This document shows, one piece after another, positions 37,423-56,517 of a stretch of DNA of 64,000 nt. The DNA comes from an alpha proteobacterium SCGC AAA015-N04 (GTDB taxonomy: Bacteria; Pseudomonadota; Alphaproteobacteria; Puniceispirillales; Marisalimonadaceae): positions 78,147-142,146 of the forward strand of contig KB910521.1 of the NCBI GenBank assembly GCA_000383115.1. Direction: 5' to 3'. The position numbers were made by a program, and so were the translations under genes. The notes below the pieces were generated by a model. The model ran no database searches. It was not told where the DNA came from and was given only the letters and a program-made list of their open reading frames with translations. Every line of letters starts with the position of its first letter. Within the stretch, counting starts at the first letter, position 1.

Positions 37423-37560
37423 ATGAATAGCAAAAATTTATTATTATTTGTCTTTTGGGGGTTAGCTTTTATAGTAATTGCGTGGTCACTACCTTTTTTA
37501 GCTAGAGAAAATCAAATTCTTAGTAATTTTTTGTCATTCTGTATATCAATTATAAAATGA
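37423..37560 (+). CDS. Small membrane protein (45 aa) translationally coupled to SCO1
   Basis: A 46-codon frame starting MNSKNLLLFVFWGLAFIVIA and ending in SIIK. It has one clear transmembrane helix and perhaps a second short one. Its TGA overlaps the sco1 ATG in an ATGA, the usual sign of translational coupling. Position and topology recall small accessory subunits of haem-copper oxidase or copper-insertion systems, but the sequence itself is not recognisable. No strong ribosome site is visible upstream. Confidence 0.6.
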   Translation: MNSKNLLLFVFWGLAFIVIAWSLPFLARENQILSNFLSFCISIIK

Positions 37561-38183
37561 CAAATTTATTTCAAATTAATTTTGCAAGAAAAAAATTAAT
37601 CTTACTTTCATCAATAATCATTTCTTTTATAATTCTTTTAATTTTAACTTTTCTTTTTGCAGAATATCTGTCACGTAAAAATGCTCCGAAAAAACTATCA
37701 GAAATAATCAATAAAGTTCATTTAACTGATCATTATGGAAAACCTTTTAAAAGTAGCACTTTAAAAAATAAACCTTCATTGTTATTTTTTGGGTTCACAA
37801 ATTGTCCAGAGATTTGCCCTACAACACTAGCTGATTTATCTGAAATTACCACAGAAGTAACATCAAGCATTGACGAAATAAATATAATTTTTGTTACTTT
37901 AGACCCCAAGAGAGATAATGAACAACATCTCAAAGATTATATCCAATATTTTGATGGCAATATTATTGGTGTGACAGGGAATAAAATAGAAATTAAAAAA
38001 TTTGCAGAGAATTGGGGTGTCTTTTATGAAACTGTAAAAACTTCCAATAATAATTATACTTTAAATCATACAGCAACTGTATTCATGATTGATGAATTAG
38101 GAAATTTTAGAGGAACAATATCCTGGGGTGAAAATGAAACTTCTATAATTCAAAAGATTAATAATTTGAGAAAACTTAATTAA
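37557..38183 (+). CDS. SCO1/SenC copper chaperone
   Basis: A 208-aa thioredoxin-fold protein anchored by an N-terminal helix (residues 13-33). The copper site is complete: CPEICPTT (CxxxC) and the distal His in LNHTATVFMID. SCO proteins deliver copper to the CuA site of cytochrome oxidase or act as thiol reductants. No oxidase genes are in the window. The ATG overlaps the preceding 45-aa ORF, and the stop overlaps the convergent modA-like gene by 8 bp. Confidence 0.93.
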   Translation: MTNLFQINFARKKLILLSSIIISFIILLILTFLFAEYLSRKNAPKKLSEIINKVHLTDHYGKPFKSSTLKNKPSLLFFGFTNCPEICPTTLADLSEITTEVTSSIDEINIIFVTLDPKRDNEQHLKDYIQYFDGNIIGVTGNKIEIKKFAENWGVFYETVKTSNNNYTLNHTATVFMIDELGNFRGTISWGENETSIIQKINNLRKLN

Positions 38184-40653: not shown

Positions 40654-41091
40654 TTAGCTTATAGACTTTAAAAGTTTTTTTAATAGTTTTTTTGATTTAC
40701 CATAAACCTTCACTTTTTTAATTTTGTCTAAATTACTTTTATCATCTCCAACAATAACTAAACCTATCATTCCCATAGCTTTGTGAGGAGTACATTGATA
40801 TAAATATACGCCGGGTTTAGTAAATTTAAAATTAGCATCTTTACTAATTTTTGATTTAAATTTTGATACCCCTTTTGGCATCCCTATAAATTCTACATTA
40901 TGACCTTTATCTACCGACTTCCAGGTTACTTCGTCATTCACTTTAATAGATATAACTTTTTCAGAATAAACCATTTTTTCTTTCCCAAGTTTGTTTAACA
41001 TATCAATAGTATGATTTTCCGCATTAGCAAAACTTGAAACTAATAAATATAAGAACACTGTTAGAATAGAAACTGATTTAGTTAAAAACAT
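40654..41091 (-). CDS. Pseudoazurin-type blue copper protein
   Basis: A 145-aa periplasmic cupredoxin with a signal peptide cut near FANAENH. The type-1 copper ligands are His64 (DKGHNVEFI), Cys100, His103 and Met108 in YQCTPHKAMGMIG, with pseudoazurin spacing. It carries electrons, classically to copper nitrite reductase or between bc1 and terminal reductases; neither is in the window. The promoter region holds a TA dinucleotide repeat (41112-41130). Confidence 0.93.
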   Translation of the reverse strand: MFLTKSVSILTVFLYLLVSSFANAENHTIDMLNKLGKEKMVYSEKVISIKVNDEVTWKSVDKGHNVEFIGMPKGVSKFKSKISKDANFKFTKPGVYLYQCTPHKAMGMIGLVIVGDDKSNLDKIKKVKVYGKSKKLLKKLLKSIS

Positions 41092-53428: not shown

Positions 53429-53815
53429 TTAATTTGACAACTTATCTAATATCGGACAATTTGGCCTATTATCACCTTTACAATTTTTTGCTATATAACT
53501 AAGTTCTTTACGTAATTTATTTAAGTCATTTAATCTTTTATCTATTTCGTTTATTTTTTCCATTGTTATAACTTTAACTTCTTTACTTGATCTGTTTTTA
53601 TTTTCATACAAAGATAAAAGTTCTCTGCATTCTTCTAAACTAAAATCAAATTTTCTGGCATTAGCAACAAACTTTAGCTTTAAGATATCATCTTCAGAAT
53701 ATTCTCTGTAAGAGGTAAACTTATTTTGATATGGTTTAACTAGACCTATTTGGTCGTAATACCTAAGTGTTTTTGCTGTTAATCCTGAAAATTTTGAAGC
53801 TTTACCGATATTCAT
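53429..53815 (-). CDS. CueR-like copper-responsive MerR-family regulator
   Basis: A 128-aa MerR protein: winged HTH MNIGKASKFSGLTAKTLRYY, dimerisation coiled coil about 80-110, and the metal loop NCKGDNRPNCPIL. Cys112 and Cys120 fall at the positions that bind Cu(I) in Escherichia coli CueR, and Ser77 replaces the Cys of Zn/Hg sensors, so a monovalent coinage-metal sensor is likely. It is divergent from the DUF4396-cytochrome operon and most likely controls it through the operator at 53830-53850. Confidence 0.92.
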   Translation of the reverse strand: MNIGKASKFSGLTAKTLRYYDQIGLVKPYQNKFTSYREYSEDDILKLKFVANARKFDFSLEECRELLSLYENKNRSSKEVKVITMEKINEIDKRLNDLNKLRKELSYIAKNCKGDNRPNCPILDKLSN

Positions 53816-53826
53816 TATATCATTAC

Positions 53827-53857
53827 TTTACATTACCCCTAGGTTAAGGTTTATAAA
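53827..53857 (+). promoter_or_regulatory. MerR/CueR-type promoter and operator
   Basis: A -35-like TTTACA (53827-53832) and -10-like TATAAA (53852-53857) are separated by 19 bp, the overlong spacer typical of MerR-controlled promoters. Inside, ACATTACCCCTAGGTTAAGG plus T (53830-53850) is an imperfect dyad, ACnTTAnCC and GGnTAAnGT. It faces the DUF4396 gene whose ATG is at 53879. Confidence 0.8.
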
Positions 53858-53878
53858 TTAAAAGATAAGGTTTAGTCA

Positions 53879-54316
53879 ATGGATGATATAATTTCAATTA
53901 ACTGGTTTTGCAGTAATACTTGGTATACAGCTTCAAAAAACACATTATGGTGTTTGCTTGGTTGTTGCATTGGAGATTTAGGTACAATTGCATACTTCCA
54001 ATTTATGGAAATTAAATGGCCAGTTTTATTAATTATGTCTCTGGCTATTATTAACGGGATACTAACTTCTATCGCATTAGAGACATTTATTCTTTCCAAA
54101 CAAATGCCTATTAAATTGGCTTTTAAAACAGCTGTTGGAATGTCTTTAGTTTCAATGATTTCTATGGAATTAGCTATGAATATAACTGATGTTGCTCTTA
54201 CTGGTGGTGCAATTTTAACTTGGTGGGTAATTCCTATAATGCTGGTTGCAGGATTTGTGACACCATTGCCGTACAATTATTGGCGATTAAAAGCTTTAGA
54301 CAAAGCATGTCATTAA
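53879..54316 (+). CDS. DUF4396 membrane protein, copper-linked
   Basis: A 145-aa protein with four transmembrane helices. The NTLWCLLGCCIGDLGTIAYF segment, the MSLVSMISMELAMNITDVAL Met-rich helix and the end AGFVTPLPYNYWRLKA match DUF4396, a family often next to multicopper oxidases or copper pumps. It is first in the operon behind the CueR-type promoter and overlaps the cytochrome c gene by 10 bp. A copper or cation role in the membrane is inferred from context. Confidence 0.85.
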   Translation: MDDIISINWFCSNTWYTASKNTLWCLLGCCIGDLGTIAYFQFMEIKWPVLLIMSLAIINGILTSIALETFILSKQMPIKLAFKTAVGMSLVSMISMELAMNITDVALTGGAILTWWVIPIMLVAGFVTPLPYNYWRLKALDKACH

Positions 54317-54807
54317 ATTTTAAACATTTTACTAAAAATAAATTTTTATTTTTAATATTTATTCCTTCCATAATATTGATCTTTGGAATATTCAAATATA
54401 TGCCTGAAAAAATAGTTGCTAAAGCAGCAGTTACTTTAAATCCTTACAATAAAGAAACCATTTTATTAGGAAAATCTGTATATATTCAAAATTGTGCATC
54501 ATGCCATGGTACAAAATTAGAAGGTCAAAAAGATTGGATGTCAAGACTGCCAGATGGATTAATGCCTGCTCCTCCACATGATGAGACAGGTCACACTTGG
54601 CATCATAGTGATAAATATTTATTTATGATTACTAAATACGGTATTGAAGAAATTATTGGTCAAAAATATCCTAACAATATGCCTGCTTATAAAAACATTC
54701 TATCAGATAAAGAAATTATTTCAGTATTATCCTACATAAAAAGTACTTGGCCAAACAAAGTTATAAAAATCCACGATCAAATCAATGACCGTGAGAAATC
54801 AAAGTAA
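54307..54807 (+). CDS. Membrane-anchored c-type cytochrome
   Basis: A 166-aa protein from ATG 54307 (the frame extends upstream, but only inside the previous gene). An N-terminal helix (residues 11-30) anchors it, then CASCHGTKLEG binds haem c, and NNMPAY supplies the axial Met. The His-rich DETGHTWHHSD is a possible metal-binding stretch often seen in cytochromes of copper-resistance operons. It shares the CueR-type promoter with the DUF4396 gene and probably passes electrons in copper oxidation. Confidence 0.9.
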   Translation: MSLNFKHFTKNKFLFLIFIPSIILIFGIFKYMPEKIVAKAAVTLNPYNKETILLGKSVYIQNCASCHGTKLEGQKDWMSRLPDGLMPAPPHDETGHTWHHSDKYLFMITKYGIEEIIGQKYPNNMPAYKNILSDKEIISVLSYIKSTWPNKVIKIHDQINDREKSK

Positions 54808-54837
54808 CATCTAATTAAGTTATTAATGGAGATTGAT

Positions 54838-54867
54838 ATGCTATCTCGACGTCAATTTTTAAATTAA
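54838..54867 (+). pseudogene. Truncated Tat-signal remnant (probable multicopper oxidase relic)
   Basis: Behind GGAG at 54828-54831, an ATG opens MLSRRQFLN and then a stop. SRRQFL is the core of a twin-arginine signal, the usual start of CopA-type multicopper oxidases, which belong in such copper operons. Nothing recognisable follows up to the convergent GST end at 54900, so only the first nine codons appear to remain. Short match, so moderate confidence. Confidence 0.4.
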
Positions 54868-54899: not shown

Positions 54900-55505
54900 T
54901 TAAATTAACATAGCATTTTGAAGAGCAACCCTAGATAGTAATCTTTCTAGATAATTGCACAAATTAGTCATATTTGAAATATCAGCACCTACTCTTTTTG
55001 CACCCAAACATGCATGACCTGTCATTATATCCGCCCCTGAAAACGAACCTATTAAATAATCTTTATTTTTTAGATTATTATCTACATTCTTCAGCGCAAC
55101 ATTTAAAAGTTTGAAAGCTCTGGCAACATTTACTTCATTCTTTCTCTCAGGAGGCAATAAAATAGTTTCTACAACAATAATGTTAACTTGTCCCATAATT
55201 GAACCTTCAGCATAATGAAGCCATTGAAGATAGTAAGGAAAAGCTGGATCATTTTTATTTGGACAAAACTTTCCTTTGTCATATTTAGCTAGTATGTACT
55301 GTAAAATTGCTCCAGATTCATATATTTTAATATTTCCGTCTTCTAACACAGGTACTCTTCCCATTGGATGTAATTTAAAATATTCAGATGTTCTTAGAGC
55401 TTTATCTCCCACTGTAAATTTTTTTATTTCATAGTTCAAACCCAACTCTTCAAGAAGCCACGCAATTCTTACGGCTCTTGAGTTAGGCGCAAAATATAAT
55501 TTCAT
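54900..55505 (-). CDS. Glutathione S-transferase family protein
   Basis: A 201-aa GST: MKLYFAPNSRAVRIAWLLEE is the thioredoxin-like start with the activating Ser/Arg region, RVPVLEDGNIKIYESGAILQ holds the cis-Pro and the glutathione-binding ES pair, and a helical C-terminal domain follows. The start is ATG 55505 with GGGAGG upstream. It conjugates or reduces with glutathione; substrate unknown. Confidence 0.92.
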   Translation of the reverse strand: MKLYFAPNSRAVRIAWLLEELGLNYEIKKFTVGDKALRTSEYFKLHPMGRVPVLEDGNIKIYESGAILQYILAKYDKGKFCPNKNDPAFPYYLQWLHYAEGSIMGQVNIIVVETILLPPERKNEVNVARAFKLLNVALKNVDNNLKNKDYLIGSFSGADIMTGHACLGAKRVGADISNMTNLCNYLERLLSRVALQNAMLI

Positions 55506-55611
55506 CAAAACCTCCCATGTAGAATGAATAATTCTTTAATTTTGTATATTAGATTTTTGTGTTTTATATAATAAAATAATAATAAATTAACTAGAAAATG
55601 TAGAGAAAATA

Positions 55612-56517
55612 ATGAATTTAGAAAATATACTTATTACGGGGTCATCCGGTTTAGTAGGTTCCCCATTAGTAAAAAAACTTTTAAAAAGATGTAATCTTAT
55701 TATTGGAATTGATCCCATTATTAATTCAGAAAATAATATTAAATATAAACATGTTTCAAAAACTTTGAGTGATACTAAAGATATTTTGAGTTTATTAAAA
55801 AAAAATAATATTACAAAAATAATTCATGCAGGTGGAATTTCTGGTCCAATGCTCTATAACGAAAAACCAAATTTAATAATTGAAAACAATATCTTCTTCA
55901 CAATGAATCTCATTGAAGCAGCTAGATTATATAAGGAAATTAACAGATTTATTTTCTGCTCCTCTATTTCTTCATATGGAAAACTCACAAAAATTAACAC
56001 AAAGGAAGATTATCGTTTTGCACCCGAGAATCTCTATGGCGCAACAAAAGCATCTTGTGATATGATTTTAAAGAAATATTTTGAAAATTATGGATTAGAC
56101 ATAATATCCTTAAGATTATCAACTATTTATGGCCATAAAAGAAAAACAAGTTGTTTTATAAATGACATTATAAATTCTGGAATTAAAAACAGAAAAATAA
56201 CACTGCCATTTAAAAAAGATTTTTGTTGGCCGTATATATATGTAGATGACGCTGTATCATGCATTGAAAAATGTTTATTTCATAATGAGAAGCATTTTTA
56301 TGATTACAATGTCTCGGGACCAGATTTTCCTTCTTATGAAAAAATAGTAAATGAGATTAGTCTACACTTTAAAAATTTAAAAGTTAATTTTCTAAATCAT
56401 AATTCCATCAATGATAGAAAACTTTTTAGTATAAGTAAGATTAAAAAAGATTTTCGTTGGAAACCTAACTATCCGATTGAGATGGGTATTAAAGAATATA
56501 TTACTAATTTATCGTAA
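55612..56517 (+). CDS. NAD-dependent epimerase/dehydratase (extended SDR)
   Basis: A 301-aa extended SDR: ENILITGSSGLVGSPLVKKL binds NAD, HAGGISGPMLYNEKP and the SSISSYG strand follow, and the catalytic YGATKASCD (YxxxK) is intact. Similar enzymes epimerise or dehydrate sugar nucleotides or oxidise uronic acids. The gene is alone between the divergent GST and a second SDR. Confidence 0.88.
   Translation: MNLENILITGSSGLVGSPLVKKLLKRCNLIIGIDPIINSENNIKYKHVSKTLSDTKDILSLLKKNNITKIIHAGGISGPMLYNEKPNLIIENNIFFTMNLIEAARLYKEINRFIFCSSISSYGKLTKINTKEDYRFAPENLYGATKASCDMILKKYFENYGLDIISLRLSTIYGHKRKTSCFINDIINSGIKNRKITLPFKKDFCWPYIYVDDAVSCIEKCLFHNEKHFYDYNVSGPDFPSYEKIVNEISLHFKNLKVNFLNHNSINDRKLFSISKIKKDFRWKPNYPIEMGIKEYITNLS

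Follow-up and report, generated by a model that had tools for sequence, protein, structure and literature searches.

We describe here a locus in a SAR116-cluster genome that is best explained as a copper-detoxification operon which has lost its oxidase, and in which a protein of the DUF4396 family, located in the inner membrane, most likely deals with Cu(I); to this reading as a whole we assign a probability of roughly two in three. The evidence lies in the identity of the regulator, the geometry of its promoter, the order of the genes, the loss of the oxidase and the recurrence of the arrangement across genomes, all of them established by sequence comparison. The locus was found in a window of 64,000 nucleotides (the whole stretch of DNA that was analysed) from source genome G000, an assembly of 1.71 Mb in 74 contigs that is 66.8% complete and whose closest named relatives are SAR116 single-cell genomes.

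A CueR-type regulator and its promoter

The regulator gene, cueR (53429–53815, minus strand; 128 aa), encodes a Cu(I)-responsive regulator of the MerR family. Its product scores 149.4 bits against the TIGR02044 CueR model, above the curated cut-off of 147.4, and far under the cut-offs of the ZntR, MerR and CadR models. Over residues 1–127 no gap is needed to align it with E. coli CueR (1q05), and the Cu(I) residues C112, C120 and S77 are all present when the protein is aligned to its orthologues and to E. coli CueR. The score and the alignments thus bear out the preliminary description, which had seen in the gene a CueR-type sensor with these three residues. No second CueR was found in an assembly-wide search, the assembly being 66.8% complete.

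Between the regulator and the DUF4396 gene lies a CueR-type promoter and operator (53827–53857, plus strand), made up of a −35 element TTTACA (53827–53832), a 19 bp spacer (53833–53851) and a −10 element TATAAA (53852–53857). Scored against a 31-nt consensus of the CueR type, it agrees at 25 positions, while shuffled versions averaged about 15.6 and equalled it in no more than 1 case in 301. Centred in the spacer is a dyad visible in the sequence, ACATTACCC-CTA-GGTTAAGGT (21 bp; 53830–53850), with seven of nine arm positions complementary. The divergent promoter with a 19 bp spacer and a well-placed dyad, claimed at first from inspection, is therefore confirmed by the sequence of 53827–53857 and by the shuffled controls. 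The same promoter architecture stands 5′ of DUF4396 in the sister genomes, and when the 31-nt consensus was scanned across 107 distinct DUF4396 upstream regions, 66 reached the floor of the shuffle test.

We infer that this promoter is activated by CueR in a Cu(I)-dependent manner: cytosolic Cu(I) would bind CueR, which would untwist the over-long 19 bp spacer and so switch on DUF4396 and a membrane-anchored cytochrome c. Sensors of the MerR family that carry Ser77 (CueR and GolS) bind monovalent coinage metals generally, and the switch might instead sense silver, gold or thiol stress, as GolS-type relatives of CueR do. This we hold to be very improbable, given that the regulator scores as a CueR, far above the other MerR subtype models, that its partners in the sister operons are an oxidase, CopC and CopD, and that exposure to gold or silver is, to our knowledge, negligible in the open ocean.

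The operon and its lost oxidase

The lead gene of the operon, divergent from cueR, encodes DUF4396, an inner-membrane protein of 145 aa (53879–54316, plus strand; PF14342, 121.6 bits against a cut-off of 27). It overlaps by 10 nt the gene for a membrane-anchored class I cytochrome c of 166 aa (54307–54807, plus strand; PF00034, E = 2.2e-11). Both features of class I cytochromes c are present, a CxxCH heme site (CASCH), after which comes APPHDETGHTWHH, and a downstream Met ligand (NNMPAY). To call this cytochrome ‘His-rich’, as was initially done, overstates the case: there are seven histidines in 166 aa, and GHTWHH is a family-wide signature, found in 52 of 53 distinct homologues.

Directly 3′ of the cytochrome gene we identified, by alignment to the sister genomes, the remnant 5′ end of a multicopper oxidase gene (54826–54867, plus strand). 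It comprises 13 codons and a stop (ATG GAG ATT GAT ATG CTA TCT CGA CGT CAA TTT TTA AAT TAA) and reads MEIDMLSRRQFLN, where the sister oxidases read MEINMLSRREFLNFSAATIALTS; positions 54809–54865 agree with the beginnings of the sister oxidase genes in 51 of 57 nucleotides, an alignment score of 45 where none of 200 shuffles exceeded 20. A multicopper oxidase homologue was not found elsewhere in the assembly, which is 66.8% complete. The gene order within the genus is DUF4396, cytochrome c, multicopper oxidase, with a full oxidase gene in the sisters. Other genomes have DUF4396 followed by CopC and CopD, or combine all of these genes, as at locus L047, where CueR, DUF4396, cytochrome, CopC, CopD and oxidase occur together. 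Pfam confirms the Cu-oxidase domains and CopC in the sister operons; the gene that we read as copD may be so, the partial protein that was scanned having given no Pfam match.

These comparisons change how the set of target genes is to be understood. The preliminary description had held that the targets were not the usual CopA and CueO, and this stands insofar as neither CopA nor an intact oxidase was found in the incomplete assembly. The implication that the set is unrelated to CueO fails, because the sisters encode the oxidase and/or CopC–CopD and the window itself keeps the start of the oxidase gene. From gene order and the remnant, then, the locus is apparently a copper-detoxification operon from which the oxidase has since been deleted, a shortened version and not a novel target set.

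It might be objected that the oxidase is missing through an artefact of assembly or single-cell amplification and that the operon is whole in the living organism, since the assembly is 66.8% complete, is broken into 74 contigs and, as with single-cell assemblies in general, could contain chimeric joins. However, the oxidase break lies inside a 230-kb contig, the same gene has decayed independently in other genomes (through stop codons in G031 and an internal deletion in G026), and two further genomes (G024, G007) carry the operon without the oxidase. We therefore consider an artefact improbable and retain the reading of an oxidase lost by deletion.

Several other features of the operon and its surroundings were noted. 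At four loci (L009, L013, L019, L118) a cytochrome c′ (PF01322 in L009) takes the place of the class I cytochrome after DUF4396. Genes for a GST and an epimerase lie 3′ of the operon here (window positions 54900–56517) and 5′ of DUF4396 in the sisters; this difference in position indicates that the region has been rearranged. The same window also contains genes for a SCO1/SenC copper chaperone (37557–38183, plus strand) and a plastocyanin-type cupredoxin (40654–41091, minus strand), some 13–16 kb from the CueR locus.

Distribution of DUF4396, CueR and the copper ATPase

Among 389 alphaproteobacterial genomes sampled across the class, 35 carry a window-like DUF4396, subfamilies being assigned by identity to the window protein (assignment by reading-frame length was dropped, as it was wrong for G196). 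A divergent CueR gene adjoins the window-like DUF4396 in about 21 of these 35 genomes (including one weak and one frameshifted case); a promoter of the CueR type lies 5′ of it in 22 of the 34 that were scored. The loci of 80 named relatives, mostly alphaproteobacteria, give a similar picture: the fetched flank holds a CueR gene in 38, nearly all of them divergently adjacent to DUF4396 at a near-constant distance, and many of the 80 have an oxidase, CopC, CopD or the GHTWHH cytochrome nearby. The co-occurrence of DUF4396 with CueR-like genes, which had been suggested as a check, is thus found in both sets, and the conservation of promoter and gene arrangement across many genomes supports the proposed control of DUF4396 and cytochrome c by CueR. 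The remaining genomes with a window-like DUF4396 belong mainly to small-genome lineages, in which the gene often stands alone, without copper neighbours.

Adjacency is not universal, even close to home. In many genomes of the same genus cueR lies at an unrelated locus, unlinked from DUF4396, as might be expected if DUF4396 and cytochrome c were housekeeping genes that merely happen to sit beside a cueR controlling only itself. Yet a CueR-type promoter is still found 5′ of DUF4396 in these genomes, on DUF4396's own contig. The link is therefore to the DUF4396 promoter and not to the neighbourhood, the unlinked cueR presumably still controls the DUF4396 operon in most genomes of the genus, and the housekeeping explanation is, in our judgement, very improbable. 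That the locus is a copper-controlled operon we consider highly probable.

Two further arrangements connect DUF4396 with copper. In a 1.4-Mb genome from one of the small-genome lineages (L173:4653–6402) a CsoR-family repressor (PF02583), a cupredoxin and a GHTWHH cytochrome lie beside DUF4396; as far as gene content tells, this is an independent copper link for DUF4396, through an unrelated type of sensor. In two other alphaproteobacterial genomes a divergent DUF4396 is fused to a multicopper oxidase, in proteins of 643 aa (L192:4711–6642) and 617 aa (L196:7867–9720). We regard the copper link of DUF4396 as well supported.

Where cueR is unlinked in the genus, it is found in most genomes between purN-like and drug/metabolite-transporter genes (L056, L059, L061–L071). 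Second copies of DUF4396 without CueR or operator, 60–67% identical to the window protein, occur in three genomes: G302 (L205, L206), G113 (L175, L176) and G270 (L202, L217). In G362, which has a copper ATPase, a DUF4396 gene with two stop codons lies beside a frameshifted CueR gene (L209), and the module as a whole appears from these lesions to be decaying. A plasmid search for DUF4396 returned two distant Streptomyces proteins only, and the one inspected had no copper neighbours.

The second distributional pattern concerns the P1B-type copper ATPase. A model search found no match in G000, which in an assembly 66.8% complete is weak evidence when taken alone. Among 61 relatives the ATPase is complete or near-complete in three (G037, G043, G060) and partial in two more; DUF4396 is present in 22 of 23 high-quality relatives. 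Insofar as the assemblies reveal it, CopA is thus really absent from the genus. Across the class-wide sample the ATPase occurs in 8 of the 35 genomes with a window-like DUF4396 as against 264 of the 354 others (Fisher p = 2e-9, a value that ignores phylogeny). Strict mutual exclusion of the two, considered on a first count of 1 in 15, was rejected on the larger sample; because eight genomes carry both, replacement of the ATPase by DUF4396 is not strict. Copper export could also come from other genes, such as RND pumps.

Possible roles of DUF4396 and comparison with known copper systems

The AlphaFold2 model of DUF4396 (mean pLDDT 86.8) contains about four membrane helices, and the placing of positive residues suggests that both termini are cytoplasmic. 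Three motifs stand out: C25xxGC29 in TM1, M96xxxM100 in TM3 and a C-terminal CH. C25 and G28 are invariant in all 75 of 75 DUF4396 sequences, divergent subfamilies included; C29, M96 and M100 are kept in most, and the C-terminus is usually H or CH. CTR copper transporters carry what may be comparable motifs (MxxxM, GxxxG and a C-terminal CH), a resemblance from which we do not claim homology. Neither a PDB sequence search (no match) nor a Foldseek search with the model (no significant match) produced a relative, and the best structural matches, to 4u9l (a membrane-protein domain, Z 7.7) and to designed bundles, are within noise for helical models.

We propose that DUF4396 would deal with Cu(I) at the inner membrane and might stand in for CopA. 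In the mechanism that we prefer, it would move Cu(I) outward through the TM1 cysteines and TM3 methionines, the simplest path leading from cytosolic Cys/His residues to the TM1 cysteines, on to the TM3 methionines and finally to the periplasmic oxidase. In the periplasm, the multicopper oxidase would then oxidise Cu(I), with the cytochrome taking the electrons. The cytochrome may thus accept the electrons released when Cu(I) is oxidised or, alternatively, act as a periplasmic copper ligand by way of APPHDETGHTWHH. A respiratory-linked copper response, as first suggested, may also be involved, its one line of evidence being the presence of the cytochrome c. That DUF4396 itself binds and transports Cu(I) we advance tentatively. 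The broader proposal, that DUF4396 is a family of small Cu(I) exporters which has replaced CopA as principal target of CueR in marine alphaproteobacteria, SAR116 among them, and feeds a partner oxidase, sometimes fused to it, is more doubtful still.

A role without copper transport can also be envisaged, in which DUF4396 would be an anchor or assembly factor for the periplasmic oxidase and cytochrome, or an electron relay to the respiratory chain. The fusions of DUF4396 to multicopper oxidases fit such a role, and so does the frequency of cytochromes c and c′ among its neighbours. A parallel is found in Rhodobacter capsulatus, where the oxidase CutO is active only with the help of a dedicated protein, CutF (PMC8456105). 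DUF4396, however, persists without the oxidase in the present window and, elsewhere, without either an adjacent oxidase or an adjacent cytochrome, and a pure anchor role does not predict the negative association with the copper ATPase. We therefore judge this explanation unlikely, although worth keeping in view, and continue to prefer a role for DUF4396 in the handling of Cu(I) at the inner membrane.

The closest known counterpart is the E. coli Cue system (CueR, copA, cueO), which resembles the present one in its sensor, in its promoter with a 19 bp spacer and dyad and, if the sister operons are considered, in its oxidase. It differs in that a single fragment is all that was found of a copper ATPase in the genus described here, and in that DUF4396 heads the targets with a c-type cytochrome behind it. 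The oxidase has been deleted in the source genome; in place of the CueO-type oxidase of the canonical Cue regulon, this incomplete assembly holds only the 13-codon remnant (54826–54867). Non-canonical CueR targets are likewise known in Salmonella (CueR/GolS and CueP) and in Pseudomonas aeruginosa, whose CueR regulon comprises PA3515–3519, copZ and mexPQ-opmE (PMC7922089). Both organisms keep copA in the regulon, unlike the genus here, and DUF4396 does not figure in the description of any target listed.

The alphaproteobacterial cutFOG operon of R. capsulatus is alike in that a multicopper oxidase is co-transcribed with small proteins, CutF being needed for copper tolerance; maturation of CutO requires the CopA efflux pathway, whereas SAR116 genomes mostly lack the copper ATPase, and DUF4396 does not appear in cutFOG in the portion of the report available (PMC8456105). 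An organism with an oxidase but without CopA would therefore have to obtain its periplasmic Cu(I) in some other way. Plasmids of Roseobacter and Azospirillum carry copper islands (L167–L169) that similarly place a GHTWHH cytochrome c beside a multicopper oxidase and a heavy-metal P-type ATPase; cueR is annotated in one of them, the ATPase is present, and DUF4396 is not annotated. A full-text literature search for DUF4396 found one paper only, which names it in passing, next to a metal-resistance island (PMC7760498), and a search for the accession PF14342 found none; DUF4396 as a conserved lead target of CueR was not found in the literature searched.

With CueR, the promoter and the oxidase all standard, the unusual element left in the locus is its lead gene. 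We suggest that the locus is a variant of the CueR copper regulon and that DUF4396 is a candidate new copper-handling family. Copper shapes microbial life in the ocean, and SAR116, an abundant group, mostly seems to do without the copper pump known from textbooks; should DUF4396 fill that gap, this would give a function to an uncharacterised protein family.
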